This document shows positions 18,590 through 39,269 of a DNA stretch of 64,000 nucleotides, one piece after another. The notes beneath the pieces are model-generated. The model was not told the DNA's origin. It saw only the letters and a program-made list of their open reading frames with translations, and did no database searches. The translations under genes and the position numbers were made by a program. The DNA is from Anoxynatronum buryatiense (GTDB lineage: Bacteria; Bacillota; Clostridia; Peptostreptococcales; Tindalliaceae), in the NCBI RefSeq assembly GCF_900182905.1, contig NZ_FXUF01000001.1, positions 310,001 through 374,000 on the forward strand, in the 5' to 3' direction. Positions within the stretch are counted from its first letter, which is position 1; each line of letters begins with the position of its first letter.

Positions 18590-19300
18590 TTATTTGAAAT
18601 GGGGAATAGCCATTTTTCTTCTTCTTTCCATCATCTTCAGTTCCCGATCCATGTAGTGGTAGATCAAACTTCCTTCAAGAAGCAGCTCCTTCACAAATGT
18701 ATCCGCAAATGCATTTACCAGCTGCTTTTTAAAAGGAGTCGCCATTGGGCTATAGGTGTAGACATAAGCGCATATTTTTCCTGCATCTTCTTCATATCTA
18801 CCTTCTCTGCAATCTTCAAAATCAACCCCGAAAACGGTGTCAGTCCATAAAAAATTTCGCAGATTGACATCAGCCATGATCATTCTCTTACCCTCAAGCT
18901 CCTTCGTTATCTGATAGAACCTTTCCAGCCAGCCAGTCAACAATCCTATTATTTCCATTGTAGACTCTGGCAGATGATCACCCTCTGTCCATTTGCATTC
19001 CTGTTTTTCAAATGCCTCACAGAGAGTAATTCCGTCGATGTATTCCATCAGCAAATAGCTGCCTTGCTGCTCATAAACAGCAGGCACTTCAAGTCCCTGC
19101 CGATGCAGTGCCGTTATCATTTCCATTTCCTTCACAAGGCGTTTATGATCTTGATAGGCCTTCAAGACATATTGTTGAGGCGTCCCATCACTTTTCCTGG
19201 CCTTTATCAGCCACACCTCATTTTTTTTGCTTTTAAATGTTTTGATTCTCTCAAAAACCGCCTCATCATGTTTTTGCCAGAAATGATTGCTCAGTATCAA
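18590..19300 (-). CDS. Kinase-like protein 1 (RIO/WaaP-like fold) under a Moco riboswitch
   Basis: A 236-residue cytosolic protein with a minimal protein-kinase-like fold: Lys47 in VLKAY, acidic residues near 58-60 for the alpha-C contact, hinge region LLMEYIDG (about 83-90), catalytic loop MADVNLRNF (Asp144, Asn149) and the metal site GVDFE (Asp160). The HRD His and the DFG Gly are replaced, as in RIO, APH and LPS-kinase-like families. The substrate is unknown. A paralogue lies at 52954-53742 with the same GVDF block and downstream YxxNP/YSP region. TTG start behind AAGGAG. It is preceded by a Moco riboswitch and a second leader RNA, so a role in Mo/W cofactor metabolism is inferred. Confidence 0.7.
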   Translation of the reverse strand: MILSNHFWQKHDEAVFERIKTFKSKKNEVWLIKARKSDGTPQQYVLKAYQDHKRLVKEMEMITALHRQGLEVPAVYEQQGSYLLMEYIDGITLCEAFEKQECKWTEGDHLPESTMEIIGLLTGWLERFYQITKELEGKRMIMADVNLRNFLWTDTVFGVDFEDCREGRYEEDAGKICAYVYTYSPMATPFKKQLVNAFADTFVKELLLEGSLIYHYMDRELKMMERRRKMAIPHFK

Positions 19301-19488: not shown

Positions 19489-19517
19489 AAAAAAAGGTGC
19501 CTAAGAGAAGGCACCTT
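19489..19517 (-). terminator. Terminator of Moco riboswitch 2
   Basis: Minus strand: AAGGTGCC-TTCTCTTA-GGCACCTT stem followed by a T-run, immediately after the Moco aptamer and before the second leader RNA. Confidence 0.88.
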
Positions 19518-19551
19518 GAACACGACAAGAAAATCATCCTGACGTTCGGTT

Positions 19552-19658
19552 CATCTCCTTTCCACAATGGGAGGTGCCAGCGTTTCCACTAATACCCTAC
19601 AGGCCAGTTTCTCATGGGTACGAGATGAGCGTACCGGTAGAGAAAAAGACTCGGAGTT
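19552..19658 (-). ncRNA. Moco/Tuco riboswitch 2 (kinase-like gene 1 leader)
   Basis: Minus strand CTCCGAG (19656-19650), GGGTA, GGAAAC, a slightly changed ACCTCCCA, and GTGGAAAGGAG near the 3' end. The hairpin region between CTCCGAG and GGGTA is present. It is followed by its own terminator and then by another structured RNA. Confidence 0.87.
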
Positions 19659-19675
19659 ATTAAGTTGTCTTAATC

Positions 19676-19704
19676 ATTATAATCTGTTGTGATATTATTG
19701 TCAA
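19676..19704 (-). promoter_or_regulatory. Promoter of Moco riboswitch 2
   Basis: Minus strand TTGACA (19699-19704), 17-nt spacer, TATAAT (19676-19681): a consensus housekeeping promoter ending about 18 bases before the aptamer. Confidence 0.88.
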
Positions 19705-19799
19705 GGTATTTGTTTTCTAATCCAACTGATTAAAATGGATTGTTGTTAATGAAAGTCAAACCATCTATGATATATCCCATAAGCATCACAGCCCTTTAA

Positions 19800-21551
19800 T
19801 TAAATTTTTTCTCTGGCAATATAGTGGGTGTGCAGCAAGTCATGTGCTTTTTCGCCATAAGGTTTCCCTAAATACTCCTCATAAAGTCGAAGCACTTCTT
19901 CATTCTCATGGGATTTTCGCTTTGCCTTTCCCTGATCCTCCCGATAAATTGCCTCCTGGCGTTTTTTAATAATTTCCATGTTACCATGGTGATATGGCTG
20001 GCCTCCTCCGCCAATGCACCCTCCTGGACATGCCATGATCTCAATGGCATGAAAACTGGACTTGCCATCCCTGATATCTTCCAACAACTTTCGAGCATTT
20101 CCCAACTCATGAGCAATTCCAATCCTTAGATCCATGTCACCAATGGTAATCGTTGCCTCCCGAATTCCTTCAAGCCCTCTCAATGCTTTGAATTCAACAT
20201 TTTCAAGTGTATCACCTGTGATCCATTCATAAGCCGTTCTGGCTGCTGCCTCGATGACTCCGCCTGTTGTTCCAAAAATAACTGAAGCACCTGTGCTTTC
20301 ACCCATCATCGAATCAAAAGGTTGATCCTCAAGATTGGCAAAATCTATTCCCGCTTCTTTCATCATTTGGGCAAATTCTCTTGTCGTAATGACGATATCC
20401 ACATTGGAATCTTCCTCTTTTGTAAACTCAGGCCTTTTTGCCTCCGCTTTTTTTGCCAAGCAGGGCATAATGGAAACAACCGTGATGTCGTGAGGATTAA
20501 TTTGTTTTTTCTCTGCATAGTAAGTTTTGGCGATGGCTCCAAACATTACCTGAGGAGATTTACAGGTCGATGGAATATCCAGCATGTCTGGAAACTGATG
20601 TTCAAAAAACTTGACCCAGGCCGGACAACAGCTGGTAAGCATTGGCAGCGTACCCTGATGCTGAATGCGATGAACCAGTTCAGATGCTTCTTCCATGATC
20701 GTTAAATCTGCCGCAAAGTCGGTATCAAAAACCCCATCAAATCCTAGTCTCCTTAGTGCTGCTGCAATTTTTCCCGTCGTTATTTCTCCCGGCGCCATAT
20801 GAAACATTTCACCAATTGCGACGCGAATGGCCGGTGCCACCTGAACTACAACATGGCGATTTTTGTTGTTAAGCTCTCTCCATACTAAATGGGTGTTGTT
20901 CACTTCTGTTAGGGCTGCAGTTGGGCAAACGGCAACGCATTGACCACAAAATGTGCAGGATGTGTCAGCCATGTCCATGTTGAAAGCAGGCCCCACAAAA
21001 GCTCCAAAACCCCGATTTACCGCTGATAAGATGCCACAGGTTTGCACATCGTTGCACATGGTTTCACAACGACGACACATCACACATTTGTTGGGATCTT
21101 TTACCAGCGAGTAGCTGGACTGATCTTTCGGGTAGTCCAATCGTTCACCTTCCCATTTTATTTCTCTTATCCCCAACTCCTGGGCCAGACTCTGCAGTTC
21201 GCACTCCAGATTTTTGGCACAGGTTAGACATTCCTTGGGGTGATTCGATAAAAGCAACTCCACCGACATGCGACGCGCCGTGATAGATCTCAGAGAATCT
21301 GTCGTGATGACCATTCCTTCTGTCACCTTTTCTGAACAGGAAGGTACCAGCGCCGGGCGTCCTGCCACTTCAACCATGCACACCCGACAGGATGAAGACT
21401 GGTTGACAATACCCAACTCACCAAGGTTCATGTGACATAGTGTCGGAATGTGTGCGCCACACTTCTCAGCAGCTTCCAATATCGTCGTTTCTTTCGGCAC
21501 TTGAATGTGACAGCCGTTGATGGTTACATTAATCATATCCACTTGATCCAC
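19800..21551 (-). CDS. hndD: NAD(P)-linked [FeFe] hydrogenase catalytic subunit
   Basis: A 583-residue catalytic subunit that interconverts H2 with protons and electrons. Domain order: plant-type [2Fe-2S] (C39, C55, C58, C72), His/Cys [4Fe-4S] (about 104-117), two [4Fe-4S] ferredoxin clusters (156-209), H-cluster domain with TSCCPAW (306-312), MPCLAKKAE (362-370) and EIMACPGGCIGGGGQP (504-519), then the small C-terminal domain. All canonical catalytic motifs are intact. It closes a four-gene hydrogenase operon of the HndABCD/HydABC type, which may bifurcate between ferredoxin and NAD(P). The exact start (21551, 21542 or 21536) is uncertain. Confidence 0.93.
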   Translation of the reverse strand: MDQVDMINVTINGCHIQVPKETTILEAAEKCGAHIPTLCHMNLGELGIVNQSSSCRVCMVEVAGRPALVPSCSEKVTEGMVITTDSLRSITARRMSVELLLSNHPKECLTCAKNLECELQSLAQELGIREIKWEGERLDYPKDQSSYSLVKDPNKCVMCRRCETMCNDVQTCGILSAVNRGFGAFVGPAFNMDMADTSCTFCGQCVAVCPTAALTEVNNTHLVWRELNNKNRHVVVQVAPAIRVAIGEMFHMAPGEITTGKIAAALRRLGFDGVFDTDFAADLTIMEEASELVHRIQHQGTLPMLTSCCPAWVKFFEHQFPDMLDIPSTCKSPQVMFGAIAKTYYAEKKQINPHDITVVSIMPCLAKKAEAKRPEFTKEEDSNVDIVITTREFAQMMKEAGIDFANLEDQPFDSMMGESTGASVIFGTTGGVIEAAARTAYEWITGDTLENVEFKALRGLEGIREATITIGDMDLRIGIAHELGNARKLLEDIRDGKSSFHAIEIMACPGGCIGGGGQPYHHGNMEIIKKRQEAIYREDQGKAKRKSHENEEVLRLYEEYLGKPYGEKAHDLLHTHYIAREKI

Positions 21552-21557: not shown

Positions 21558-23351
21558 CTAAGGTTTAATAACTGCATCAAATTTACATGCGCGCAAGCAA
21601 GCACCACACGAAATGCAATCTGCCGATCTGATCACGTGCACCTTTTTAACAGCACCTTCGATGCAATTGACTGGACAGGCTCTTACACAAGCTGTGCAGC
21701 CGATGCACTTTTCAGGGTCGATGCTATATTTGACCAAAGCCTTGCACTCACCCGCAGTGCAATGTTTATGCAGTACATGATCTTCATACTCATTTCTGAA
21801 GTAATGAAGCGTGGAGAGCACTGGATTAGGGGCTGTCTGACCCAGCCCACAAAGCGCTGCATCTTTAATCATGGCAGCCAACTCTTCCAGATGAATCAAA
21901 TCATCTTCCGTTCCTTTTCCCTTGGTGATTTTTTCAAGGATTTCAAACATCCTTTTTGTTCCCACGCGACAGGGGGTACATTTTCCACACGATTCATCCT
22001 GTGTGAACTCAAGGTAGAATTTGGCAATATTGACCATACAGGTGGCATCATCCATGACAATCATTCCTCCGGATCCCATCATGGAACCAATGCCTTTTAA
22101 TGACTCGTAATCAATGGGCGTATCCAGATCTGCTTGAGTGATCACACCTCCGGAAGGTCCACCAGTTTGTACCGCTTTAAACCCTTTATTATCAACAATT
22201 CCGCCACCGATATCAAAGATGATTTCTCGCAGGGTTGTTCCCATGGGTACTTCTACCAGCCCCACATTGTTGACGTTACCGGCGAGAGCAAAAACTTTTG
22301 TTCCTTTGGATGTTTCTGTTCCAATACCTTTGAACCACTCCGCTCCATTAAGGATAATGGAAGGGACGTTAGCAAAAGTTTCCACATTATTCACAGTGGT
22401 GGGTTTTCCCAGGTAGCCAGATTCTGATGGGAACGGTGGTTTTTTTGTAGGTTCTCCCCTGGCACCTTCCACAGAATGAATAAGGGCCGTTTCTTCACCA
22501 CAAACAAAGGCGCCGGCTCCCAGCTTGACTTGGATATCAAAATCAAATCCTGAGCTGAAGATGTCTTTTCCAAGGAATCCCATTTCTCTCGCCTGCTCTA
22601 TGGCACTTTGCAGCCGTTTAATGGCAAGGGGGTACTCTGCTCGAATATACACAATGCCCGTGTTCGCACCAGTGGCATACCCTCCGATGGTCATGGCTTC
22701 AATAACCGAGTGAGGATCACCCTCTAAAATGGATCGATCCATAAAGGCCCCCGGGTCACCTTCGTCGGCGTTGCAAATCATATACTTTTCATCACCGGGC
22801 GACTTCAGTGTCAACTCCCATTTAAGTCCAGTTGGAAAGCCACCACCGCCGCGTCCCCGGAGCCCTGCTTCCTTGATGATCCCTGCCACCTCAAGAGGCG
22901 ACAAGTCCATGAGCACTCTTGCCAATGCTTCGTAGCCTCTGAAGGCAATATATTCATTGATATCGTCCGGATTAATCAAGCCACAGTTTCTCAACGCAAT
23001 ACGGTACTGCTTCTTATAGAAGGCCATCTGATCATGTTTGTCCAGTTTTTGATGATCTTCAGGGTCTACGAACAGCAATCGGGAGACCACACGCCCCTTG
23101 ACGATGTGTTCCTGAACAATTTCAGAAGCGTCCTCCTTGCTGACTTTTACATAAAACACATTATCTGGATGTATTTTAACAATAGGACCCTGACCACAAA
23201 ACCCAAAGCAACCTGTTCTGACAACACTAATTTCCTGATCATAATGCGCTTTTTGCAGCTCAATGTTCAACGCTTCGATGATTTCTTCAGATCCGCAAGA
23301 AACGCATCCCGTTCCTCCACAGACCATGACGTGACTTCTTACCCGCTCCAT
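21558..23351 (-). CDS. hndC: Hydrogenase NuoF-like flavoprotein subunit
   Basis: A 597-residue NuoF-type subunit that binds FMN and NAD(P)H. It has an N-terminal thioredoxin-like [2Fe-2S] domain, the FMN loop GLRGRGGGGFPTG, the nucleotide segment GAGAFVCGEETALI, an SLBB domain, the [4Fe-4S] motif ESCGKCTPCR and two C-terminal ferredoxin clusters (CIGCTACVRACP, CISCGACLRAC). It passes electrons between NAD(P) and the catalytic subunit. Start set at the ATG behind GAGGAGGG; the upstream ATG overlaps the ribosome site. Six bases separate it from the catalytic subunit gene. Confidence 0.93.
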   Translation of the reverse strand: MERVRSHVMVCGGTGCVSCGSEEIIEALNIELQKAHYDQEISVVRTGCFGFCGQGPIVKIHPDNVFYVKVSKEDASEIVQEHIVKGRVVSRLLFVDPEDHQKLDKHDQMAFYKKQYRIALRNCGLINPDDINEYIAFRGYEALARVLMDLSPLEVAGIIKEAGLRGRGGGGFPTGLKWELTLKSPGDEKYMICNADEGDPGAFMDRSILEGDPHSVIEAMTIGGYATGANTGIVYIRAEYPLAIKRLQSAIEQAREMGFLGKDIFSSGFDFDIQVKLGAGAFVCGEETALIHSVEGARGEPTKKPPFPSESGYLGKPTTVNNVETFANVPSIILNGAEWFKGIGTETSKGTKVFALAGNVNNVGLVEVPMGTTLREIIFDIGGGIVDNKGFKAVQTGGPSGGVITQADLDTPIDYESLKGIGSMMGSGGMIVMDDATCMVNIAKFYLEFTQDESCGKCTPCRVGTKRMFEILEKITKGKGTEDDLIHLEELAAMIKDAALCGLGQTAPNPVLSTLHYFRNEYEDHVLHKHCTAGECKALVKYSIDPEKCIGCTACVRACPVNCIEGAVKKVHVIRSADCISCGACLRACKFDAVIKP

Positions 23352-23373
23352 CTTAACCCTCCTCATCGACTAA

Positions 23374-23772
23374 TTATGCTTTGTTGAATGTGTTCATCAA
23401 AATTGCATTATCTATAAATTCATTTTTCATAATATGCTTCTGAATAATTTCCTTTGCCCGTTCAGCATCCACCTTGCCATATAGGATGGGCTCTTCACCT
23501 GGTCTGTTAACCTGAACAATTGGTTCAGAGTGACAGTAGCCCAGACACCCCACCTGCACCACCCTGATGTTTTCCAGAGACTGTGCTTCAATTTCGTCCA
23601 ACAATGCCCGCAACGTTTCACGGGCACCAGCAGCAATGCCACAAGTTGCCATACCCACCATCAGCTCAGTGATTGCCTCTGTATGATCAGTGCCTTCCCG
23701 CAAATTCACTTTTTTTTGTGCATTTTCTCTGATCTTGATCAGTTCTTCCAATGATTTAATAGGCATTTTCAT
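23374..23772 (-). CDS. hndB: [2Fe-2S] ferredoxin-like hydrogenase subunit (HndB type)
   Basis: A 132-residue thioredoxin-like [2Fe-2S] protein with Cys ligands in MATCGIAAGA and VGCLGYCHSEP. It corresponds to the small HndB subunit of NADP-reducing hydrogenases. Its start overlaps the end of the NuoE-like gene by 17 bases, which points to translational coupling. Confidence 0.88.
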   Translation of the reverse strand: MKMPIKSLEELIKIRENAQKKVNLREGTDHTEAITELMVGMATCGIAAGARETLRALLDEIEAQSLENIRVVQVGCLGYCHSEPIVQVNRPGEEPILYGKVDAERAKEIIQKHIMKNEFIDNAILMNTFNKA

Positions 23773-24289
23773 TCCCCTTTCTGTATTTTTTTAGTATTTC
23801 TTTAACACCATCCACCGTTACATGCCCAAACACCTGATCATCAAGAAATACGACTGGTGCCAACCCACATGCACCAATGCATCGAACGTCTTTAAGAGTG
23901 AATAGGCCATCTGGTGTTGTTTCACCATTTTGAACACCCAGTTCATTTTTAAATGCGTCGACTATTTTTTCTGCTCCCCTCACGAAACAGGCCGTTCCCA
24001 TGCATACGCTGATTTTATGTTTTCCAACTGGCTTTGTTGTGAAATAGGAATAGAAGCTCACCACTCCAAACACTTTAGCTCCTGGAATATCAAGCTTTCT
24101 GGCTATGAAGAGCTGTACTTCCGGTGGCAGGTAGCCGAACAGTTCCTGTGCTTTGTGCAGCACATGAATCAAAGAACCTTTTTTGTCTTTCAGACTATTG
24201 ATATATGTTTCCAACGTTTCATAATGCTCCTGTGGCAAACTGGCGACCTCCGCTTGATTTTTTGATGTCTGTAAAACTGGCTGTGACAT
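23756..24289 (-). CDS. hndA: Hydrogenase NuoE-like [2Fe-2S] subunit
   Basis: A 177-residue NuoE-type subunit with an N-terminal helical region and a thioredoxin-like domain carrying the [2Fe-2S] ligands in CMGTACFVRG and CIGACGLAPVV. It is the first gene of the hydrogenase operon, preceded by GAAAGGAAGG and by a Moco riboswitch with terminator in the gap to xdhC. A hydrogenase contains no Mo or W, so this control is unusual. Confidence 0.92.
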   Translation of the reverse strand: MSQPVLQTSKNQAEVASLPQEHYETLETYINSLKDKKGSLIHVLHKAQELFGYLPPEVQLFIARKLDIPGAKVFGVVSFYSYFTTKPVGKHKISVCMGTACFVRGAEKIVDAFKNELGVQNGETTPDGLFTLKDVRCIGACGLAPVVFLDDQVFGHVTVDGVKEILKKYRKGNENAY

Positions 24290-24341
24290 TGATACACCTT
24301 CCTTTCAGATTATGCTCTCCAACTATCACTCCTGAATCAAT

Positions 24342-24371
24342 AAAAAAAACTCCCCAATCATCCGAGGAGTC
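24342..24371 (-). terminator. Riboswitch terminator ahead of the hydrogenase operon
   Basis: Minus strand: ACTCCTC and GGGGAGT arms around an eight-base loop, followed by eight T. Between aptamer and terminator (24372-24442) lie further pairings, including AGCAAGGCTTTTTT and CCAGAT/ATCTGG, which may form the alternative structure. Confidence 0.85.
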
Positions 24372-24442
24372 TTCGTTTCCAGATCTGCTATCTGGATACC
24401 TAAAGCCAGGCTGTTTCCATTACAAAAAAGCCTTGCTCTCTA

Positions 24443-24537
24443 CCCCTCCTTTCCACACTGGGAGGCATCGCTGTTTCCGGCGATACCCATCGCCTTTTAA
24501 ACCACTCTTTAAAGGAAGGTTTAAAAGATCGGAGTTG
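24443..24537 (-). ncRNA. Moco/Tuco riboswitch 3 (between xdhC and the hydrogenase genes)
   Basis: Minus strand: CTCCGAT (24534-24528), a long hairpin with TTTTAAACC/GGTTTAAAA arms, GGGTATCGCCGGAAAC, GCCTCCCA and GTGGAAAGGAGG. The 5' end lies only about 9 bases behind the xdhC stop codon, and I see no promoter in the last bases of xdhC. It therefore appears to be an intra-operon switch. Confidence 0.9.
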
Positions 24538-24545
24538 TTATTCAT

Positions 24546-25619
24546 TTAGTTTCTTGATGACTCTGTGACGAACGGTTCAATGAGAACACTCATAATGCCT
24601 CCACAAACCATTCCCATGTCTTCAGCCATTTCTCCGGTTAAATCCAACGTTCTTATGGTCACTTGATGGCTGTCCATGCTGTCTATTGCCCATTGAATCA
24701 CTTGACTCTCACTACAGCCACCGCCAATGCTGCCAGCAATGCTGCCGTCAGGAAATACAATCATTTTTGCGCCAGCCTTTCTTGGGACAGATCCCTTTGT
24801 AGCGATCACCGTCACCACCGCTTTTTTCTCCCCCTGATTCAGTGAGAGTGTTTTAACCACCTGGGGATCATACTCTGTCTGATTGCGGGCAATGGCCTTC
24901 TTTTCCCTCCCTTCCACGATTAACCTGCGGCAGCTCACCAGTTCAGCCGCAATGGATAGTGCAATTTCTTCCGGTGTTACGGCTCCAATATCCAAACCAA
25001 TGGGGGTATGCACCTTCTCAAGCAATTCTTTGGAGTAACCTTCTCTTTCCAGTTCCTCCAGTATTCCCTTTACGCGGCGCTTTGATCCGATCATGCCCAC
25101 ATAGGCTTGTCCTTTGTCAATGACTGCCCGAAGGCATTCCAGGTCATGGCGGTGCCCTCTGGTGACAATGACCACGTAAGTGACTGAAGTTATATCCAGC
25201 CGCTGAAAGCAGGTGGAAAAGCTTTCGCAGATTACCTGCTGCGCCTCAGGGAATCTCTTTTGATTGGCAAAAGAAAGACGATCATCCACCACCGTGACTT
25301 GAAAGCCTGCTTGTGCAGCCATTGTGGTCAATGGTTTTGCAATATGTCCACCACCAAGAATCACCAGTTGAGGTACGGGGAAATACGGTTCAATGATGAT
25401 CGTCTGATGGACCTGATCAACGACTTCCACCATTCTCTGTTCATACGCCCGCTGAATCAATGCATTAAAAGGATCCTCGTCCTTGTCATGCTCTTTGTTC
25501 ACATAACATTTTTTTGTCACCTTCGATGCCTGTTGATCAAGGTTGTTCACCACTGTCAGCATTGCAGCTTCACTGCCTTCATTAAGCGCTTGAAACAGTT
25601 TTTCATAAGCTTCTCTCAA
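24546..25619 (-). CDS. XdhC/CoxI-family molybdoenzyme maturation factor with rearranged domains
   Basis: A protein of about 357 residues. XdhC proteins bind Moco and help insert the sulfurated cofactor into xanthine dehydrogenase-type enzymes. Here the Rossmann domain (LVILGGGHIAKPL, VVDDR, VTRGHRHD, GMIGSKRR, PIGLDIGA) comes first, at about 85-220. The CoxI-type domain (TKGSVPRKAGAKM, SIGGGCSE, GMVCGG) follows at about 265-350, whereas the usual order is the reverse. The N-terminal 80 residues look like a worn first copy (AAMLTVV). Start at TTG behind AAGGAGG, overlapping the phosphatase gene. Confidence 0.82.
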   Translation of the reverse strand: MREAYEKLFQALNEGSEAAMLTVVNNLDQQASKVTKKCYVNKEHDKDEDPFNALIQRAYEQRMVEVVDQVHQTIIIEPYFPVPQLVILGGGHIAKPLTTMAAQAGFQVTVVDDRLSFANQKRFPEAQQVICESFSTCFQRLDITSVTYVVIVTRGHRHDLECLRAVIDKGQAYVGMIGSKRRVKGILEELEREGYSKELLEKVHTPIGLDIGAVTPEEIALSIAAELVSCRRLIVEGREKKAIARNQTEYDPQVVKTLSLNQGEKKAVVTVIATKGSVPRKAGAKMIVFPDGSIAGSIGGGCSESQVIQWAIDSMDSHQVTIRTLDLTGEMAEDMGMVCGGIMSVLIEPFVTESSRN

Positions 25620-26250
25620 GTTGACATCCCTCCTTTCCAGCTTCATTTGCCGGCAGTAGGTTCAGAGCTTCCACCTGCATGACAGCCCCCAATTGCTTGA
25701 TCAGACTGATCTGAGTGTAGCACTGTTGAATCTCAAACAATGACTTCAGTTCCATTCCCAGCAAATGGCTCAGAATTACTCGATTAACGCCGGCATGGGC
25801 AACAATGGCTATGTTTTCACATGTATCTTCCAATATACCATAGAAGGCGGGCAGTACCCGTTTGGCTAAATCAGCAAAGCTCTCACCCTTTGGTGGCCTA
25901 AAAGTATCTATTTCTCGTCCCCGGCGTGTATATGCTTCAGGATCCGTTTTTTTGATCTCTGATAACCTTTTGCCACCCCAGTTTCCCAGATTGATCTCCC
26001 GAAGACTGGCCATCTGAACAACCGGTTTATGGTGGAAACTGGCAATAACAGCTGCTGTTTCAACAGCTCTTATGAGGTCACTGGCATAAATCGCCTGCAG
26101 GGACCGATATTTTAGTGCCAGGGCAGCGGCTTTCGCTTGTTGTTCGCCCTGACTGCTTAGAGATGGATTCTCCCATCCCAGATAAGTGCTTTCCTGATGG
26201 TCAGTTGCAGGTTCAGCATGTCTGATTAAAAACACCATTCGCTCTTTCAT
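25603..26250 (-). CDS. Histidine phosphatase family protein
   Basis: A 215-residue branch-1 histidine phosphatase: phospho-acceptor in LIRHAEP near the N terminus, second catalytic region REINLGNWGG, and the distal His in VAHAGVNR. The family covers phosphoglycerate mutases and small-molecule phosphatases such as alpha-ribazole phosphatase. Its start overlaps the stop of the NTP-transferase gene (ATGA), so the two are translationally coupled within the molybdoenzyme maturation cluster. A cofactor-related phosphate ester is a plausible substrate. Confidence 0.85.
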   Translation of the reverse strand: MKERMVFLIRHAEPATDHQESTYLGWENPSLSSQGEQQAKAAALALKYRSLQAIYASDLIRAVETAAVIASFHHKPVVQMASLREINLGNWGGKRLSEIKKTDPEAYTRRGREIDTFRPPKGESFADLAKRVLPAFYGILEDTCENIAIVAHAGVNRVILSHLLGMELKSLFEIQQCYTQISLIKQLGAVMQVEALNLLPANEAGKEGCQLERSL

Positions 26251-27389
26251 GGTTGAACACCCTGCACCAGCTCGGAATGCAGGAATGGCATCAAAGGGCA
26301 TTTCAAGGCAGCTTCCACCATCTTTTGCAGGTCCATTGCGTCGGTCAAACGCTTTTCTGCTGATTTCTGTGCCTGATCATTGCCTTGGAACTGCACCAGA
26401 ATCTTCTCCATCCGATTGCTCAGATCTGTTAGCTGTGCATCTGCCACCAGTTTGTCTGCCAGATAAACCAGGGTCGTTTCACTGATTTGATTTTTGAATT
26501 CAATCGGCAAATCCATGTGGACGGCGACAATATGAGCTACTTCAGGATACCCTTTATCTGCAATCAATGAGGCTCCCTTAACAGCGTGATTCTTGTTGCC
26601 CCGGACAAGATCGTGCAATAAGCAGGCAGCACTGATCAAGCCCAGATGCAAATGATAACCCTGGCTGTTCAAATGTTCTCCCAAGGCTCTGGCCACCCGT
26701 TCCACCTGCTGCATGTGGGAAACAATGTGAGCCTCTGTTCCATGCTCCAGCCACATTCCATGGCATTCAACCGCTGTTGGAAAGTCAGCCAGATTGTTTC
26801 TGACAGCACTTCGATAGGCTGCCTCAGTGTCTATATCCATTAAAACCCCTTTATCATGTACAGCAACAACCTGCTCTGTTCTTGCATGTGCTCTCAACAG
26901 AGCCTGCAACCCCCCAGCCGCTTCTCTTTTCAGAATTAATGGCTGCAATGCTGTGGATATTAGGGGTGGATGCCCTTTTTGATCCTTGTAAACCGGATAA
27001 ACCACATCACATGATTTTGTTTCAAAGGTGTTTAGTATTTCTGTGATCACTTCACTTGAAACAAAAGGCATGTCAGCAGGCAGAAAGAAAAAGGCGTCAA
27101 TTTCAGTCTTCAATGTGTCGACGCCAACCTGAACAGAAGTGTACATTCCCCGAGAGTATACCTCATTGACCACTGCCATTGCTTCCATTTTTTCCACCAG
27201 TGGCTTTAATAAGTGTGCCTGATGGCCCAATATCACTCGAATGTCGTGGATCCCTGCCCGCTGAAAAACCCGGATGACTCTTTCAATCACCAGTTCATTT
27301 GGAGACACCGGCAACAGGGGTTTTAAGAAACCCATCCGTGAAGCGTACCCTGCAGCAGCAATAATGGCAGCATATTTACCCAAATCCAT
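26247..27389 (-). CDS. MobA-like NTP transferase fused to an HD domain
   Basis: A 380-residue two-domain protein. The N-terminal nucleotidyltransferase (AAGYASRMGFLKPLLPV; metal-site PADMPF) belongs to the molybdenum cofactor cytidylyltransferase group, which makes MCD for xanthine-dehydrogenase-type enzymes. The C-terminal half (about 210-330) is an HD phosphohydrolase-like domain with the HD pair in LLHDLVRG. The same fusion occurs in aldehyde oxidoreductase clusters of sulfate reducers (DVU_1551 type, as I recall). It fits the Mop-type enzyme encoded upstream. Confidence 0.83.
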   Translation of the reverse strand: MDLGKYAAIIAAAGYASRMGFLKPLLPVSPNELVIERVIRVFQRAGIHDIRVILGHQAHLLKPLVEKMEAMAVVNEVYSRGMYTSVQVGVDTLKTEIDAFFFLPADMPFVSSEVITEILNTFETKSCDVVYPVYKDQKGHPPLISTALQPLILKREAAGGLQALLRAHARTEQVVAVHDKGVLMDIDTEAAYRSAVRNNLADFPTAVECHGMWLEHGTEAHIVSHMQQVERVARALGEHLNSQGYHLHLGLISAACLLHDLVRGNKNHAVKGASLIADKGYPEVAHIVAVHMDLPIEFKNQISETTLVYLADKLVADAQLTDLSNRMEKILVQFQGNDQAQKSAEKRLTDAMDLQKMVEAALKCPLMPFLHSELVQGVQP

Positions 27390-27449
27390 CACCTCGTCGC
27401 CTTCATTTCCATCAATTCTGGCAGCCTGGTTGAATTTCCAGACCCATGA

Positions 27450-28469
27450 TCATTTTCCAAAAGAGCAATTTGGCCACCGGCAGGTCTCGCAACCCAGGCA
27501 AAAACCACCATGGGCCCAGCGAATAATATCTTTTCTTCCCAGTATTTCTCCTGCCTGAATCCTGGGATACACCAGATCAAAGACGCTGGTTCTGTTGTAC
27601 ATGACGCATCCGGGCAAGCCCAACACAGGTATCTGATTCAGATAAGCCAGTAAAAACATGGCACCCGGCAGAACTGGCGCTCCATAAGTGACGATGTGGG
27701 CACCTGCTTGTCGGATCCCTTCCGGGGTCACGTCATCAGGATCCACCGACATTCCCCCCGTGACCAGTATCAAATCTGCTCCTTGATCCCGAAACCGGTG
27801 AATTGCCTCAACAATCATTTGGATTGAGTCAGACACAAATACCTGATCCAGCACGCAGCTTCCCGAAGCACTGATTTTCTGGCGTAGAACAGGTCCAAAA
27901 CCATCTTTAATGCGTCCTTCAAAAACTTCACTTCCCGTTGTCACAATGCCGATGTTTAATTTTCTGAAGGGTTTTACTTCGAAAATGGGCCTGTAAGATT
28001 CACATACTTTTTCAAGCATAGCCAACTCTCGTTCTTTGATCACCAGCGGAATGATTCTTGTGCCAGCAAGGGGATCGCCTTCTTTCACCGACTGATTTTC
28101 ATGAATGCTGGCAACCATGACATCCTCAATACAGTTAATGGCTTCAAGTCCCTGAAGATTGATTTTTATCAAACCGTCTGTTGATGCCATCATCTGTACC
28201 TTTCCTTCACTGGGGGTGGTCAAGGTAATTCCCTGACCAGCCATTGCCTTTGCCATTCGCTGCGCCGCTTCATCTTCATGAACAAATCCGGCATTCAAGT
28301 CCCACACATAAAGATGCTTTTTACCAAGATCCAGTAATTGGGAAATATCTTCCTGAGCAACCACATGCCCCCGCTTAAACAATGGACCCTTTTTTTGTCC
28401 CGGGAGAATTTGTGTCATATCATGGCACATGACCATTCCAACCGCTTCTTGGACCGGTATTCGCTTCAT
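27450..28469 (-). CDS. Molybdopterin-binding MoeA-like protein with C-terminal cysteine tail
   Basis: A 339-residue protein related to the MoCF-binding part of MoeA/MogA (TTGSEVFEG, LVTGGMSVDPDDVTPEG). It lacks the full MoeA domain set and ends in a Cys-rich tail, CLGCETCRWPNC. It probably handles molybdopterin during assembly of the hydroxylase. The ATG follows AAAGGTGG. The cysteine tail may bind a metal or Fe-S cluster; this is not established. Confidence 0.8.
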   Translation of the reverse strand: MKRIPVQEAVGMVMCHDMTQILPGQKKGPLFKRGHVVAQEDISQLLDLGKKHLYVWDLNAGFVHEDEAAQRMAKAMAGQGITLTTPSEGKVQMMASTDGLIKINLQGLEAINCIEDVMVASIHENQSVKEGDPLAGTRIIPLVIKERELAMLEKVCESYRPIFEVKPFRKLNIGIVTTGSEVFEGRIKDGFGPVLRQKISASGSCVLDQVFVSDSIQMIVEAIHRFRDQGADLILVTGGMSVDPDDVTPEGIRQAGAHIVTYGAPVLPGAMFLLAYLNQIPVLGLPGCVMYNRTSVFDLVYPRIQAGEILGRKDIIRWAHGGFCLGCETCRWPNCSFGK

Positions 28470-28534
28470 ATGCATCCACCTTTACACATTTTATCGATAC
28501 TGCTCCACAGCATTCATTTACCTGAGTCTTTAAT

Positions 28535-29881
28535 CTAAAAGCCGGACCTCATGGGCTGCCTCCGCAGATCAATGATGCGTCTTTTATAAATCGCTTTTCC
28601 ATCCAACTCTGCTGGCTTTTGTCTTTCAAAGCTGATGGCAAGATTTGCTGACTCCAAGGAAGGTGCCAGATGCGACTCGTCAAATGCCCGATATAACTGT
28701 TGATACATGTCCGCTCCTGCTGTCTTGCCTCCCACCCCAATGACCAGTCTTTCGCCTTCATCGGTGGTGTGGATGCGAGCATCAAAATCGGTGACGTGAT
28801 CAATTCCAAAAATGACTTCTTCCAAATCTGACATGGTCAGCTTACTTCCATTTGAAAGTTTAACGGAAGATCTCAAACGGCATTGAATTTTATCCAATGT
28901 TTTCAATATTGTTCCACATGTGCAGGGTGTGGTTAGAAGACGACTCAGATCACCTGTTCGATAACGAATCAAAGGCATTCCCCGGCGTGTCAGTGTGGTG
29001 AAGACCACTTCGCCCCATTCACCATCTCCAAGAGAAACCCCTGTAAGGGGGTCCATGATCTCGACAAATAGATCCGCTTCCCTTAAATGGTATCCCTGAA
29101 AACCGTGGCATTCCACGCCACCGCCAAGCCCCATTTCTGTCATCCCATAATGTTGAAAAACCCGGCAGCCCCAGTTTTCTTCAATGGTTCGCTTGACGCC
29201 ACTGGAAACATAGTCCGTACTCAGTAGCGCACTATGCAAAGTGCCCTTTTGTCGTATGAAAGCTGCATGTTCTCCTTTTGCAAGCGCCAAGAGTTGTTGT
29301 GGTATTCCCACAATGACATTAATGCGCCTGTTAACCAACAGGTTTTCCACCTGAGCTGTATCATCCACTACACCATACACCAATGTCTCCGCGTTCATGC
29401 GGCTCAGGGCTTTTTTTAACAGGTCACCAATGCTTCCAGGGCTGGCACCAGGCAGCAATACCAGCACCTGATCCCCTGGATTGGTAAAGGTGGACATCCC
29501 TATGTGAAAAAAATCAGTGGTCAGTTCCTGGTCATCCTGAGTAAAACAAATCCTTTTGGGCTGGCCTGTGGTTCCTGAAGTCTGGAGGGTCACTATACGG
29601 CTGATGTCATCTTGCGTGACGCAAATCATCCGGTGCCCTTCAGACCTCAGGTCTTCTTCTGTTGTCCATGGCATAAGCCTGATGTCATCCAGCGTTTTTA
29701 TATCTTCTGGCTCTATGTGACTCAGCTTCTGCTGATAATAACGGCTATTTCTTTTGGCATATGCCACCGTGTACCTGATTCGATTCAGTTGGTACCTCTC
29801 AAGGATTTGTCGATTGAAGACTGTCGGCTCGCCGGTTATTTTTTCCCTGATCCAGTTCTCCAGCGGTGTTTTTTCAATCAA
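28535..29881 (-). CDS. AMP-dependent CoA ligase-like protein (PaaK-related) of a molybdoenzyme cluster
   Basis: A 448-residue adenylate-forming enzyme. It has the P-loop-like LQTSGTTGQPKR (about 100), YGMTEMGLGG, and YRTGDLSRL motifs. Phenylacetate-CoA ligases are the nearest known type. Homologues recur in Mop-type aldehyde oxidoreductase clusters (DVU_1553 type, from memory), so it may activate the carboxylate substrate or product of that enzyme. TTG start behind GGAGGT, overlapping the radical SAM gene. Confidence 0.82.
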   Translation of the reverse strand: MIEKTPLENWIREKITGEPTVFNRQILERYQLNRIRYTVAYAKRNSRYYQQKLSHIEPEDIKTLDDIRLMPWTTEEDLRSEGHRMICVTQDDISRIVTLQTSGTTGQPKRICFTQDDQELTTDFFHIGMSTFTNPGDQVLVLLPGASPGSIGDLLKKALSRMNAETLVYGVVDDTAQVENLLVNRRINVIVGIPQQLLALAKGEHAAFIRQKGTLHSALLSTDYVSSGVKRTIEENWGCRVFQHYGMTEMGLGGGVECHGFQGYHLREADLFVEIMDPLTGVSLGDGEWGEVVFTTLTRRGMPLIRYRTGDLSRLLTTPCTCGTILKTLDKIQCRLRSSVKLSNGSKLTMSDLEEVIFGIDHVTDFDARIHTTDEGERLVIGVGGKTAGADMYQQLYRAFDESHLAPSLESANLAISFERQKPAELDGKAIYKRRIIDLRRQPMRSGF

Positions 29882-31263
29882 TGAGATGACCTCCTATGAA
29901 GCGCATTCCCTGAAGAGCTGGTGATATTATAGGCGCAGAATGGAATCAGTTCGTTACTGTCGGCATCAAAAATAGCCACACTGCATTTTTTGAGCCGGCT
30001 CAGATCAAGGTTCCACACATCTTGAAAAGCCATGCAGGTAATACTGAAGCCTGCATTTCGAATGCGATTCAGATAAGCATCCCACTCGGTGAAATCATAA
30101 AGATCAGACTTAGGGTTCTGTCCCTCTTTTTCCATGTGACTGGAAGCCATTTCCCACTTTTTCTTCACAAAGTCTCTTGCATTGACAATCTCTGATGTTT
30201 GCTTTTCCTGTTGACAACCACATCCGCCCTGTGATGACAGGGAACGAACGGCACCTCCCTCATCCACCACGAAGCTTCCTTTGAAGGAGCAGAGGGAACA
30301 TCCTGTTTTAAGAGGTTTCAGATCTTTCATCTGAATTTTTCCGTCAGTTTGAATCTCAATTTGCCGGATTACTTCCGGTAATGTGATGCGTTGCGTATCT
30401 GAAGGCATATGGGGATACTTTCCAAAGTAGCTGACAGGCTGAAAATGGACTCCCCGAACAGTTGGCAGGTACTGAAGAGCAAACTCAATGATTTCACCTA
30501 TCTGGTGAGTATTTATTCCAGGTACAAGGGTGGGCACCAGTACCGTTCCCAGTTCGTACTTTCGGCAGTTTTCAATGGCTTTCTTCTTCATATCCAGTCG
30601 CATATGGCCCCGCAGATTTTCATACACATCATCACTCACACCGTCAAACTGTAAAAAAACTGCTGAAAGACCCGCTTCCTTCAATGCTTCCACATAGGCT
30701 TCATCTTCTGCCAGCCGCTGGCCATTGGTATTGAGCTGAATGTAGGGCAGCCCTTCCTGCTTGCCGCTTTTAACAATTTGGGGAAGGTCATCCCGAAGGG
30801 TGGGTTCACCACCAGAAAGCTGTATGTTAAAGGGCCGGTCTTCACTGATGTGAACCAAATGACGAAAGATGGCTCCAATTCGTTCAATGGAAGGGTCTGT
30901 TGATTGTGCTTTGGCAACGTCTGCGTAACAGACGGTGCATTGCTGATCACACCGGGAAGTCACTTCCACCAGTACACAGCAAGCCTGCTGTTGATGCTTC
31001 CCGCAAATACCGCAATCGTAAGGGCACCCTTTGCCATGAACTTTAGGAGCATACAGCGGCGGATCATTCACCGTTTCCTGCTGCCACTGCTCATAATCCG
31101 GTTTTCCTCGCCACAATATGGTTCGGAAATCGCCATGCTCTGTACAAGTCTTGACCATGCTCACCAGATGATCATTGCGAACAATATGCGCCTCCAACTT
31201 TCTCAGACATACCGGGCATAAGCTTTCAGTCATCGATACCTGGTGCTCTTCAATGAACTTCAT
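29878..31263 (-). CDS. Radical SAM protein of the aldehyde oxidoreductase cluster (TrsS-like)
   Basis: A 461-residue radical SAM protein. The cluster motif CDQQCTVC (Cys105, 109, 112) follows a Cys-rich N terminus (CPVCLRKL, CPYDCGICG). Further Cys-rich motifs lie in the middle (CSLCSF, GGCGCQQ). It resembles the TrsS group, some members of which are selenoproteins; I see no in-frame UGA here. The substrate is unknown. Start at the ATG behind GGAAGGCG, not at the upstream GTG. Confidence 0.82.
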   Translation of the reverse strand: MKFIEEHQVSMTESLCPVCLRKLEAHIVRNDHLVSMVKTCTEHGDFRTILWRGKPDYEQWQQETVNDPPLYAPKVHGKGCPYDCGICGKHQQQACCVLVEVTSRCDQQCTVCYADVAKAQSTDPSIERIGAIFRHLVHISEDRPFNIQLSGGEPTLRDDLPQIVKSGKQEGLPYIQLNTNGQRLAEDEAYVEALKEAGLSAVFLQFDGVSDDVYENLRGHMRLDMKKKAIENCRKYELGTVLVPTLVPGINTHQIGEIIEFALQYLPTVRGVHFQPVSYFGKYPHMPSDTQRITLPEVIRQIEIQTDGKIQMKDLKPLKTGCSLCSFKGSFVVDEGGAVRSLSSQGGCGCQQEKQTSEIVNARDFVKKKWEMASSHMEKEGQNPKSDLYDFTEWDAYLNRIRNAGFSITCMAFQDVWNLDLSRLKKCSVAIFDADSNELIPFCAYNITSSSGNALHRRSSH

Positions 31264-31280
31264 GGTCACCGCCTTCCTCT

Positions 31281-31664
31281 CTATGCGTTTTCCTCCAGTA
31301 ATGCCCTGACTTTTTCATAGGTCATCACCACCAGATTCTCACACACTTCTCCCTGTCTCCCTTCGTTTCCTTTCAGCAAAGTGGCACAATCGCAACTTTC
31401 AAAAGTTTCCTCAAACCAGCCTACCAGCTGAGGCACCAGTTCCAGCGCTCCTTTTTCCGGGTCATAATAAGAAAGCAGACAGGCGCCGCCGCTTAGTGCG
31501 CCACACAGTTTGCCTGAACATAACCCGCCACAGAGTCCTTTCATTGCATTGATAAGGTCCTTGTTCTCTTTTTTCTGATCGTCCAAACCCAGTTGCAGCA
31601 GCATTTGTGAACAGCAGTAACCCTTTAGTCGATAATCCATTAGCTTTTCCAGGTAATCCATCAT
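31281..31664 (-). CDS. C_GCAxxG_C_C-family redox protein
   Basis: A 127-residue cytosolic protein with the spaced cysteines of the C_GCAxxG_C_C family (GYCCSQ, GLCGGLCSGKLCGALSGGAC, ESCDCATLL, CENLV). The family is thought to bind a metal centre or act in redox chemistry. It sits in the aldehyde oxidoreductase cluster between the radical SAM and methyltransferase genes, as in related clusters. Confidence 0.8.
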   Translation of the reverse strand: MMDYLEKLMDYRLKGYCCSQMLLQLGLDDQKKENKDLINAMKGLCGGLCSGKLCGALSGGACLLSYYDPEKGALELVPQLVGWFEETFESCDCATLLKGNEGRQGEVCENLVVMTYEKVRALLEENA

Positions 31665-31685
31665 CAGAATTCCCCCTGTGAATCC

Positions 31686-32423
31686 TCAGTTCCTTTTACG
31701 GGCAACACACAGAAAATAACCCATTTTCACCTTGCTGTTGCATGGCGTCCACCTATCATCCACTGGCTGATGAGTGATCATCTTCCAAAAATCAGCGGCT
31801 GATCCAAAATTCATGATCATTGAGGCCACCATTGAATGAAGGTGGTGGGTCTCATCTTCCATAAGTTCCACATTAAAACCATTATTTTGCAACATGTGAT
31901 CAAGGTCCTTCAGCCTCATCGGACTCATTAAGCAGCTTTCGATGCCGGCATTGCCGTCAACAGCCATTAACTCCTGTTGTCGCTGGTACATGTCTGTTAA
32001 CATCAAACAGCCTTGTGGCTTCAACGTGCGATGAACTTCCTGCAAAACTTTTTCTTTTGATTCCATGAGAGAAAAGCTGCACTCCATGAGAACGCCATCA
32101 AATGAAGCCGTGGGAAATGGAAGCGCTTCAGCCTTTCCTTCTATCAGGTTTAATGACCCGTACTTTTTTTTCCCCTTTTCAACAAGAAGCGGAGAAGCAT
32201 CTAACCCGGCACAAGTATAATCATAGTGTTGCTGGATGAAATCAACGGTGGCTCCCATACCGCAACCCAAGTCCAACAGCTTGCTTTTAGAATAGAAATC
32301 GCCATACTCCAATGCTTTCATTGTCAGCTGAAACCCACCGGGTCTGATGGAGCCGTCAGTGAGCTCCTCAAAAAGTGGGTTTTCATACAGTTTAATCTTT
32401 TCTTCTCTGCCCATGATCTCCAT
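31686..32423 (-). CDS. Class I SAM-dependent methyltransferase (TrsM-like)
   Basis: A 245-residue methyltransferase with the SAM motif LLDLGCGMGATVDF (about 49-62), the acidic end of strand beta 2 (AGLDASP) and motif IV region DGVLMECSFSL. The acceptor is unknown. It recurs next to the radical SAM protein in molybdenum hydroxylase clusters, so a joint modification is likely. Confidence 0.83.
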   Translation of the reverse strand: MEIMGREEKIKLYENPLFEELTDGSIRPGGFQLTMKALEYGDFYSKSKLLDLGCGMGATVDFIQQHYDYTCAGLDASPLLVEKGKKKYGSLNLIEGKAEALPFPTASFDGVLMECSFSLMESKEKVLQEVHRTLKPQGCLMLTDMYQRQQELMAVDGNAGIESCLMSPMRLKDLDHMLQNNGFNVELMEDETHHLHSMVASMIMNFGSAADFWKMITHQPVDDRWTPCNSKVKMGYFLCVARKRN

Positions 32424-32438
32424 CTTCCTTGCCTCTCC

Positions 32439-32645
32439 TTACTTGTCTTCCAGGGTTTTTTCCACTTCCAGCATCTTCCCCATGGCAAGATCCTCCGGGA
32501 CATAGACTTCCTGGCATCTGGGACACGCCAGTAATACCGCCGGGAAAGTGCTTTTCATATAAGTAATGTGCACCTTACGGGGCTCCAACAACACATGACA
32601 TTTGACACAGGTGAGACCATCTTCGTTTTTCAGTTCTTCTTTCAT
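32439..32645 (-). CDS. Small two-CxxC redox/zinc-ribbon protein (DVU_1557-like)
   Basis: A 68-residue protein with CVKCH and CPRC pairs about 30 residues apart, which suggests a zinc ribbon or rubredoxin-like site. The ATG follows CAGGAGG; a longer reading from 32666 would lack a ribosome site. It is a conserved small member of the aldehyde oxidoreductase cluster; its role is unknown. Confidence 0.75.
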   Translation of the reverse strand: MKEELKNEDGLTCVKCHVLLEPRKVHITYMKSTFPAVLLACPRCQEVYVPEDLAMGKMLEVEKTLEDK

Positions 32646-32693
32646 GGTAACCTCCTGTCCGTCCACACGAGAAACCAGGGAAAATAGAAGTTG

Positions 32694-35054
32694 TTACAGG
32701 CTGTATTTCCGATGTTCATTCTCTTTCACCTGCCGGTTGATTTCAAGCCTGTGACTATAGGCTTTATGAACCAGGAAGCTGGTTTCTTCAATGCTGTATT
32801 CCACCCAATAGGTAATGATTCCGGGCCTGAGCTTCGCAGTATAATGATTGTTATTGGGATGATAGATTTTATTGTTAGTGGTCTCTGCGTGATAAATCAC
32901 CTGCTGAATATCTGAAAGCAGGATCAGGCGATCATTCATGACTTGTTCCATCTTCGGGGAGAAACGTACTACAATGCTTTCATGGTCCTCTGGCTGACGA
33001 TCCATATCATCCCTCCAAACTTCTTTCAGCAGTCGCTGCTTCAGTTTAATCCGATTTTCATGACGCTGACTGAAGGTGAGCTGATTACTTTCACCACGCC
33101 AATCCTCCTGAGAAAGATCCCGGTGGATCAGGTCAAAAATGTGCCAACAGGTTTTGCCCTGTTTCGAAAAATAATCATGGCACATTTGACAGTAAACAAT
33201 GTAATCTTGCTGACTTTCTCCAATCCGGTCAGCTACCATTTCCTGTGCCAGCTGTCTGTTGGCGAAGGAAACCAGTCCTCCATAGCCGCAGCATTTGGAC
33301 TTTTCTCCACTGAATGGAAGCTCTTGAATCTCAAACCCTTTGGAAATAAGGATGTGACGCACTGCCTGATGAACCCGTGGTTCGTTTTTTGCAGTACAGG
33401 CGTCATGGATTGAGATTTTACGATGATGTCCGGCAGGCGTCCCTTGAAAAGGAAGTCCCCTCTGGCAGTAAATCTCCCAAATGGATTGCACCACATGATC
33501 TGACAGTGCTTCTTTAAAGATTTTATGACAGGTGGAGCAAGCTGTTATGATGAGAGGTTTTCCAGCTTCTTCCCAGGTTTTTGTGAAAATTTCAAGTGTA
33601 TTTTTGAATAATGGGTCTCTTCCTGCCCATGCGGCCGGCGCACCACAGCAGCCTAAATACAAACCCACACCTCCTGCCAGATGAGTTGTCAGGTACTCAT
33701 AGGCCTTCATCACGTGCTCAGGCGCAAGCGCTGCTATTTGACATCCCGGATAAAACATATACTGACTGCTCTTCATTCCCGGCTGATGTCTGAAAAGCTG
33801 GAAATAGTCACTGTTGCTGAACTGCATGTCACGAATGGGGAAATCATGAATGGCTTCTGGCATGGCATTTTTCGCAACAAGTTCCTCTTTAGCAGTGGCA
33901 CATACCTCTCCCATATTCAATGCGTTGGGGCATCGTTCTTCACAAAGCCCACAATACGTGCAGGAGTTCACCATATGTTTTGTCTGTCGAATACCCATCA
34001 TGATATTCACGTTGTTGGCAATTTCACGCACGTATTTTTTGGGGTAACTCCCGTAGGATTGCAGAAATTTGCAGCTTTTCACGCATTCCATGCATTCACA
34101 TTGAATACAGCGCGCCGCTTCTGCTGCTGCCTCATCTGCTGAATATCCCCCGCCCTCATCGACAGGAGGCACTGGTGCCCAATGTTCAACAGACTGGATA
34201 TTTGTATATAAGCGGGTTTTGTAGGCTCCCTCATGATGGCGGCCCTCTGTCAGTGAAACTTTCTTCACAAATCGATCAATGGATATCGCCGCACTTCGAC
34301 CTTCCGCAATGGATGTAATGGGTGAGTAATCAGCCTGGTTCCGGGTCATGCTTCCTCCCGCAAAAACACCGCTGACTTCTGTGGACAAAGTCTGCAGATC
34401 AATTTCCAAAGACTGAGTCTTCCCTGTAGCAACCATCCCCGCTTGCATTGTTCCCATTCCAAGAAAGACAGCATCATATGCATCAATGATTGTGTCAAAC
34501 GGCTTGTCGCGTCCTATTTCACAGCCCATAAAAAACTGGATTCCAGTACTTTTTAAAAAGTCAAAGTCTTCATCAATCAGTTGTTTGGGTAACCTTTCAG
34601 AAGAAAAACCCCTGATTTGCCCCCCTATTTCAGCCTTTTTTTCATATACGTGCACCACATGCCCTTTTTCATACAGAAGCAAGGCTGCTGTTAATCCGCT
34701 GAGTCCTGCGCCAATCACCGCCACTCGATGATCGGTTTTTTTGAAAATCCTGATTTTTTTGGTTGCGATGATTCCCAACGTCGTACAGGTTTTTTCGATT
34801 TCTCTGATCTGCAGGGAACCTCCCATTTCTTTTCTCATGCAGACATCCTGACATGGCTGATCACACACGCTGCTGATGATGCGTGGAAAGGGGATCTTCT
34901 TCTGATAAACCCGCAGTGCTTCTTCCAGCTCGCCTTTTTGCATATGTAACATCATCTGTTTTACATCCACGTGAACAGGACAACGGGACTCACAGGCAGG
35001 TGGATCACTCTGGGTACATCGATCTTCATAAGCCCTGATTTCCGTGCGCTTCAT
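32694..35054 (-). CDS. Large Fe-S flavoprotein: pyridine nucleotide-disulfide oxidoreductase with dicluster and CCG domains
   Basis: A 786-residue soluble electron-transfer protein. Order: GltD-like Fe-S region (CESRCPVHVD, CDQPCQDVC), FAD-binding domain (IGAGLSGLTAALLL) shorter than in normal oxidoreductases, a dicluster ferredoxin part (CIQCECMECVKSC, CTYCGLCEERCP), and two CCG domains as in heterodisulfide reductase HdrB (CCGAPAAWAG, CCGYGG). It likely takes electrons from the Mop-type enzyme encoded upstream. The last 100 residues are unassigned. ATG follows AAGGAGTG. Confidence 0.83.
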   Translation of the reverse strand: MKRTEIRAYEDRCTQSDPPACESRCPVHVDVKQMMLHMQKGELEEALRVYQKKIPFPRIISSVCDQPCQDVCMRKEMGGSLQIREIEKTCTTLGIIATKKIRIFKKTDHRVAVIGAGLSGLTAALLLYEKGHVVHVYEKKAEIGGQIRGFSSERLPKQLIDEDFDFLKSTGIQFFMGCEIGRDKPFDTIIDAYDAVFLGMGTMQAGMVATGKTQSLEIDLQTLSTEVSGVFAGGSMTRNQADYSPITSIAEGRSAAISIDRFVKKVSLTEGRHHEGAYKTRLYTNIQSVEHWAPVPPVDEGGGYSADEAAAEAARCIQCECMECVKSCKFLQSYGSYPKKYVREIANNVNIMMGIRQTKHMVNSCTYCGLCEERCPNALNMGEVCATAKEELVAKNAMPEAIHDFPIRDMQFSNSDYFQLFRHQPGMKSSQYMFYPGCQIAALAPEHVMKAYEYLTTHLAGGVGLYLGCCGAPAAWAGRDPLFKNTLEIFTKTWEEAGKPLIITACSTCHKIFKEALSDHVVQSIWEIYCQRGLPFQGTPAGHHRKISIHDACTAKNEPRVHQAVRHILISKGFEIQELPFSGEKSKCCGYGGLVSFANRQLAQEMVADRIGESQQDYIVYCQMCHDYFSKQGKTCWHIFDLIHRDLSQEDWRGESNQLTFSQRHENRIKLKQRLLKEVWRDDMDRQPEDHESIVVRFSPKMEQVMNDRLILLSDIQQVIYHAETTNNKIYHPNNNHYTAKLRPGIITYWVEYSIEETSFLVHKAYSHRLEINRQVKENEHRKYSL

Positions 35055-37962: not shown

Positions 37963-38055
37963 TTTGCACCAGCCTCCTTTTTGTGTGGAACATATGACCT
38001 TCCATCTTATCTGTGTCTTGTATCGACCCCTTTCAGAGTATCCATTCAATCGCTG

Positions 38056-39174: not shown

Positions 39175-39205
39175 AAAAAACTCCCTTGTTGTGCAAAGGA
39201 GTTTT
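39175..39205 (-). terminator. Terminator of Moco riboswitch 4
   Basis: Minus strand: AAAACTCCTTTG-CACAA-CAAGGGAGTTTTTT, an intrinsic terminator between aptamer and the S-component start. Confidence 0.87.
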
Positions 39206-39269
39206 GAACCGTTCCATTAAACGGCACCGCAACCAAAGACGTGAAATCCTGCCTACGCCTCAGCCATTT

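Follow-up and report, generated by a model that had tools for sequence, protein, structure and literature searches.

In the 64,000-nt stretch of DNA analysed here (the window), a riboswitch of the Moco/Tuco class, riboswitch 3, lies between xdhC, the end of an aldehyde oxidoreductase (AOR) cluster, and the hndABCD genes of an iron-only hydrogenase. On the basis of folding models and conserved sequence, riboswitch 3 is rather likely to be a working member of the Moco/Tuco family, of the P3-less, Tuco type, and to act as an internal attenuator in one long operon. A broader reading is put forward tentatively: a riboswitch for the tungsten cofactor, located inside the operon, would control a W- and Mo-free hydrogenase as a cofactor-independent electron outlet, one molecule would balance formate against H2, and this wiring would have arisen from an AOR cassette landing between the S-component gene and hndA. 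The parts of the locus, in the direction of transcription, are as follows:

39384–39412, minus strand: promoter of riboswitch 4, TTGACA-17-TATCAT with an extended −10 (11/12), the start of the gene chain
39255–39373, minus strand: riboswitch 4 aptamer, heading the AOR operon (RF01055, 78.7 bits)
39177–39205, minus strand: riboswitch 4 terminator, with an ACUCC...GGGAGU design resembling that of riboswitch 3
38590–39126, minus strand: ECF transporter S component, the first gene after riboswitch 4 (PF12822)
35209–38049, minus strand: molybdopterin-dependent AOR, xanthine-oxidase type (NF045668, 1540.7 bits; cut-off 1100)
25603–35054, minus strand: remaining AOR cassette (phosphatase, NTP transferase, MoeA-like, AMP-CoA ligase, TrsS, C-GCAxxG-C-C, methyltransferase, short ORF, dicluster protein)
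24546–25646, minus strand: xdhC, AOR maturation factor (NF045664, 317.6 bits, under the cut-off of 350)
24430–24546, minus strand: riboswitch 3, P3-less Moco/Tuco aptamer (RF01055, cmscan)
24442–24448, minus strand: GAGGGGU, predicted 5′ strand of the antiterminator, sharing 3 nt with the P1 3′ strand (growing-transcript folding)
24364–24370, minus strand: predicted antiterminator 3′ strand ACUCCUC, which is also the terminator 5′ arm (folding model)
24341–24374, minus strand: intrinsic terminator made up of a hairpin and a U tract, some 55 nt ahead of hndA
23756–24289, minus strand: hndA, NuoE-like subunit (HoxE/NuoE-type matches)
23374–23772, minus strand: hndB, 2Fe-2S thioredoxin-like protein
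21558–23366, minus strand: hndC, NuoF-like subunit
19800–21551, minus strand: hndD, [FeFe] hydrogenase catalytic subunit, group A6 model (NF040763, 888.9 bits; cut-off 765)
19539–19668, minus strand: riboswitch 2, close behind hndD; it has its own 12/12 promoter at 19704–19676

The score of HndD, above the NF040763 cut-off, places it among the trimeric NADH-dependent [FeFe] hydrogenases of group A6. HndD is the sole strong full-length [FeFe] hydrogenase of the genome; two further PF02906 matches are far weaker.

Riboswitch 3 passes the RF01055 family threshold in cmscan (55.8 bits with a gathering score of 36, E 1.1e-10) and reaches 87.2 bits with our own model R1, the source alignment of which contains riboswitch 3. 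The window has five RF01055 aptamers, each on the minus strand, and the whole 4.16-Mb genome eight, among which riboswitch 3 ranks seventh by score. The P3 stem is absent, appearing as a gap, in all five window aptamers, riboswitch 3 among them. Riboswitch 3 retains every column that is invariant across an alignment of 26 aptamers, itself included. Its P1 strand CUCC starts 11 nt past the xdhC stop codon (TAA, 24548–24546), close to the nine or so bases given in an earlier, sequence-only reading; the strong terminator that the same reading placed ahead of hndA is found as a hairpin at 24374–24345 (about −13 kcal/mol) with a U run behind it. A 41-codon ORF (window 24420–24545) abuts the xdhC stop and spans the entire aptamer; coupled translation of it, if any, could disturb folding, and its length is not unusual by chance. 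Riboswitch 3 is about as similar to the riboswitch 4 leader (80) as to those of AOR-2 and tupBC (77 each), which does not single it out as a fresh duplicate of riboswitch 4.

The riboswitch 5 operon (window 39574–53805) combines ECF A, T and S genes with genes for proteins that match PF00174 (molybdopterin-binding oxidoreductase) weakly, one of them SLH-anchored, and is a candidate surface uptake system for cofactor or pterin. Riboswitches 2 and 5 are each followed first by a gene for a small APH/RIO-like kinase (window 18590–19300 and 52954–53805; 26% identical); a relative (35%) accompanies ECF genes behind another aptamer in a different family (L299, 962–1588). The segment 54316–55506 of the window encodes a fusion of a ModE-type DNA-binding domain with a TupA-like tungstate-binding domain. 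Elsewhere in the order, two genomes (G047 and G030) have 10 or 11 Moco/Tuco aptamers among the matches listed, which equals the richest cases of PMC2408646 except Syntrophomonas wolfei.

The switching model for riboswitch 3 was obtained by equilibrium folding of growing transcripts. P1 forms first (about 0.95); once ACUCCUC has been transcribed, GAGGGGU:ACUCCUC forms and P1 opens, the antiterminator reaching 0.87–0.98 at 188–200 nt. With the appearance of the second terminator arm, P1 and the terminator are restored in the model. The full-length states are near-equal in energy (terminated −75.3 vs −74.8 kcal/mol), so that a ligand holding P1 is expected to cause termination; the slight preference for termination even in the ligand-free state counts against the model. 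In a shuffled-arm test, a shuffled terminator 5′ arm did no worse than the real one in pairing with the 3′ region of the aptamer in 5/200 trials for riboswitch 3 and 7/200 for riboswitch 4. By the folding model and this test, the expression platform of riboswitch 3 is mutually exclusive with P1; riboswitch 3 is predicted to be a ligand-OFF switch in which the antiterminator GAGGGGU:ACUCCUC competes with P1; ligand binding and the direction of regulation are inferred. This predicted logic agrees with the earlier suggestion that the cofactor level sets the passage of polymerase into the hydrogenase genes. The free-state fold of riboswitch 4 breaks its own terminator (−79.5 vs −74.2 kcal/mol with P1 enforced), and its platform is predicted to be of the OFF type too. 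Riboswitches 1 and 5 and the four leaders of family f33 described below were indistinguishable from chance in the shuffled-arm test, so their OFF polarity is assigned by analogy only.

According to the proposed mechanism, one long operon would run from the promoter through riboswitch 4, the S component, the AOR cassette, xdhC and riboswitch 3 into hndABCD. When cofactor is bound to riboswitch 3, P1 would keep its 3′ strand, leaving the terminator 5′ arm free, and polymerase would halt before hndA; when cofactor is scarce, GAGGGGU would pair with ACUCCUC, the terminator would be delayed and polymerase would continue into hndABCD. Riboswitches 4 and 3 would form two serial gates on the hydrogenase, and since the hnd transcript would pass two gates of the same polarity, the response of the hydrogenase should be steeper than that of the AOR genes.

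The sequence-only reading had proposed that a shortage of Moco/Tuco switches electron disposal from Mo/W enzymes to H2. The predicted OFF logic upholds one half of this, more hydrogenase at low cofactor, but not a trade-off with the AOR of the same operon: as riboswitch 4 is also predicted to be of the OFF type, a shortage of cofactor should raise AOR and hydrogenase alike, and a contrast between them is unlikely. This AOR scores above the NF045668 cut-off for the xanthine-oxidase type and lacks PF02730, so it does not qualify as a tungsten AFOR/WOR. More plausibly, the W enzymes replaced are the nine AFOR-type (PF02730) proteins of the genome, all encoded outside the window, and its formate dehydrogenase; the latter is NADH-linked, adjoins FdhD and another aptamer, and has an in-frame TGA that is probably a selenocysteine codon. 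It is a reasonable possibility, held with some doubt, that W shortage disables the W-dependent formate dehydrogenase and W-aldehyde oxidoreductases and that the cell raises the Mo-type AOR and the iron-only hydrogenase. In Pelobacter carbinolicus, cells short of W likewise substitute a Mo-dependent aldehyde dehydrogenase for their W-dependent enzymes (PMC4275255). OFF control of a Mo-type AOR operon is consistent with this W/Mo exchange, and the hydrogenase extension would be the new element. Unlike in the present proposal, however, hydrogenase activity in P. carbinolicus is unchanged by W supply (PMC4275255), which counts against regulation of the hydrogenase by W.

Alternatively, AOR and hydrogenase might constitute one pathway (aldehyde oxidation, reduced carriers, H2), both being raised by serial OFF switches as cofactor falls, with riboswitch 3 setting their ratio. 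The equal predicted polarity of riboswitches 3 and 4 and the adjacency of an AOR cluster to hnd in two unrelated lineages speak for such co-induction, but it is rather unlikely, given that the same-genus genomes carry hnd without the AOR cassette and that 0/80 named AOR-cluster loci have a trimeric hydrogenase (hnd) operon in the flanks examined. These 80 loci contain eight aptamers, none of them at a locus with an hnd operon.

The second lineage is family f33 of the same class, in which four of six genomes have an aptamer 160–255 nt upstream of hndA, each followed, as in the window, by a terminator. The upstream neighbours in G251 and G304 include an AOR cluster that ends in xdhC and is led by another aptamer; in G251, an NTPase/methyltransferase gene separates xdhC from the aptamer before hndA. 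The f33 leaders differ from riboswitch 3 in mostly having their own promoters (three at 10/12 and one at 8/12), and the HndD proteins are about 50% identical. The hnd operon of G326 also runs on into hndA′B′C′ and formate dehydrogenase, so the latter may be the target there. With a promoter of their own in most cases and formate dehydrogenase in at least one, the f33 operons are not pure hydrogenase switches. Order-wide, a comparison by eye of aptamer and HndD positions among the matches listed gave no further case of an aptamer directly ahead of a hydrogenase operon. Other XdhC loci of the order were considered as instances of the same junction and rejected (no hnd within 1.5 kb; no Moco aptamer in 20 loci scanned). 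On these genome comparisons, the link of riboswitch and hydrogenase is rare, not unique.

The P3-less form of riboswitch 3 points to Tuco as the ligand, as P3-less aptamers have been reported in organisms with tungsten-cofactor genes (PMC2408646). It is doubtful that the ligand is instead Moco and that Mo rather than W supply is sensed. The AOR, being of the xanthine-oxidase type, is an expected Mo user, and the specificity of P3-less forms comes without biochemical demonstration in PMC2408646; against Moco stand the lack of P3, the TupA and TupB-like genes of the regulon and the nine AFOR proteins of the genome.

The assignment of riboswitch 3 to a shared operon is based on a promoter scan and the spacing of the upstream genes. 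Within 110 nt upstream, the highest sigma-70-like score is 11/12, 12/12, 7/12, 11/12 and 11/12 for riboswitches 1 to 5, respectively, and 11/12, 12/12 and 10/12 for the second AOR, tupBC-like and moaA-like aptamers elsewhere in the genome; in 360 coding windows of equal length, the best scores peak at 7–8. Since the seven other aptamers score 10–12/12 and coding windows mostly 7 or 8, the absence of a promoter, already remarked on in the sequence-only reading, is specific to riboswitch 3. A sigma-54 promoter for riboswitch 3 was also sought, with no convincing match. The gaps between the upstream genes range from −55 to 154 nt, apart from one of 270 nt that contains a short ORF; with no promoter of its own and so tight a gene chain ahead of it, the aptamer does look intra-operonic, as that reading had it. 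Between the terminator of riboswitch 4 and xdhC, terminator candidates are weak and inside coding sequence, in line with the earlier statement that no clear terminator intervenes, with the qualification of one hairpin in the AOR–dicluster gap. This hairpin (about 35159–35128) has 9 GC-rich base pairs and a tail of UUU only; it might cause partial termination or influence mRNA stability. The end of the S-component gene holds a 10/12 promoter-like site (38593–38565), which makes an internal start for part of the operon possible. As riboswitch 3 is uniquely promoterless among the eight aptamers, it is likely to be transcribed by readthrough from the AOR operon that riboswitch 4 heads, and we infer co-transcription of that operon through riboswitch 3 into hndABCD. 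Further downstream, there is no terminator-like site between hndD and riboswitch 2 (window 19517–19800), so hnd transcripts may enter yet another attenuator.

An unrecognised promoter of hndABCD within xdhC, which would make riboswitch 3 an ordinary leader riboswitch and the operon unshared, is improbable. The highest-scoring sigma-70-like site in a scan of all of xdhC (9/12) lies some 775 nt upstream; a promoter read by another sigma factor would escape the scan, and the f33 leaders mostly have promoters of their own. Nevertheless, the start of P1 just past the xdhC stop and the contrast with the seven other aptamers, all well-scoring within 110 nt, favour the shared operon. Very improbable is a decayed, unresponsive riboswitch 3 acting as a constitutive partial terminator that lowers hydrogenase relative to AOR: its low rank by score, the ORF across the aptamer and the presence of a decayed aptamer in the genus would suit it, but the invariant columns are intact, and the competing pairings are balanced and passed the shuffle test.

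The origin of the arrangement is suggested by two genomes of the same genus (L154 and L155), which have the order S component, hndA, hndB, hndC, hndD, with the S component directly before hndA and HndD 83–85% identical to that of the window. The window differs in that the AOR cassette and riboswitch 3 lie between the S component and hndA. In G001 (L154, 5070–5189), a decayed-looking Moco-type aptamer precedes the S gene and hndABCD; R1 detects it with 28.3 bits (E 8.5e-5), Rfam gives no report of it at E up to 1, and its alignment with riboswitch 4 scores 72, with a maximum of 39 for shuffles. G002 was also checked for traces of riboswitch 3 in the interval from the S gene to hndA; nothing but the hndA ribosome-binding region and start aligned, and the idea of a remnant was rejected. 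As judged from three genomes, the simplest history would be an older riboswitch–S component–hnd operon with later insertion of the AOR cassette, a derived rewiring.

The riboswitch class, the P3-less subtype, terminator platforms and tandem copies per operon are already known (PMC2408646). Riboswitch 3 resembles the Moco RNA motif RF01055 (Regulski 2008, PMC2408646) in aptamer sequence and structure, P3-less subtype, terminator platform and occurrence in several copies per genome, and tandem Moco/Tuco aptamers in one operon are known from S. wolfei (PMC2408646). Unlike the systems of PMC2408646, the main text of which makes no mention of hydrogenase, riboswitch 3 lies mid-operon, is promoterless and has iron-only hydrogenase genes directly behind it. 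A literature search of open-licence papers found none linking a Moco/Tuco riboswitch to hydrogenase control. The proposed logic, repression by a cofactor of an enzyme able to replace cofactor-dependent ones, has a parallel outside this class. B12 riboswitches of the metE type control B12-independent isoenzymes. The hydrogenase, in contrast, is no isoenzyme of formate dehydrogenase or AOR, but a proposed alternative electron outlet.

The Moco/Tuco riboswitch has been described as a regulator of genes for cofactor synthesis, import or use. The serial intra-operon layout, together with the same-genus comparison, offers a before-and-after case of operon rewiring. If the proposal is true, an electron-disposal enzyme would join the Moco/Tuco regulon, and trace W would be tied directly, at the genetic level, to the H2 output of anaerobes.
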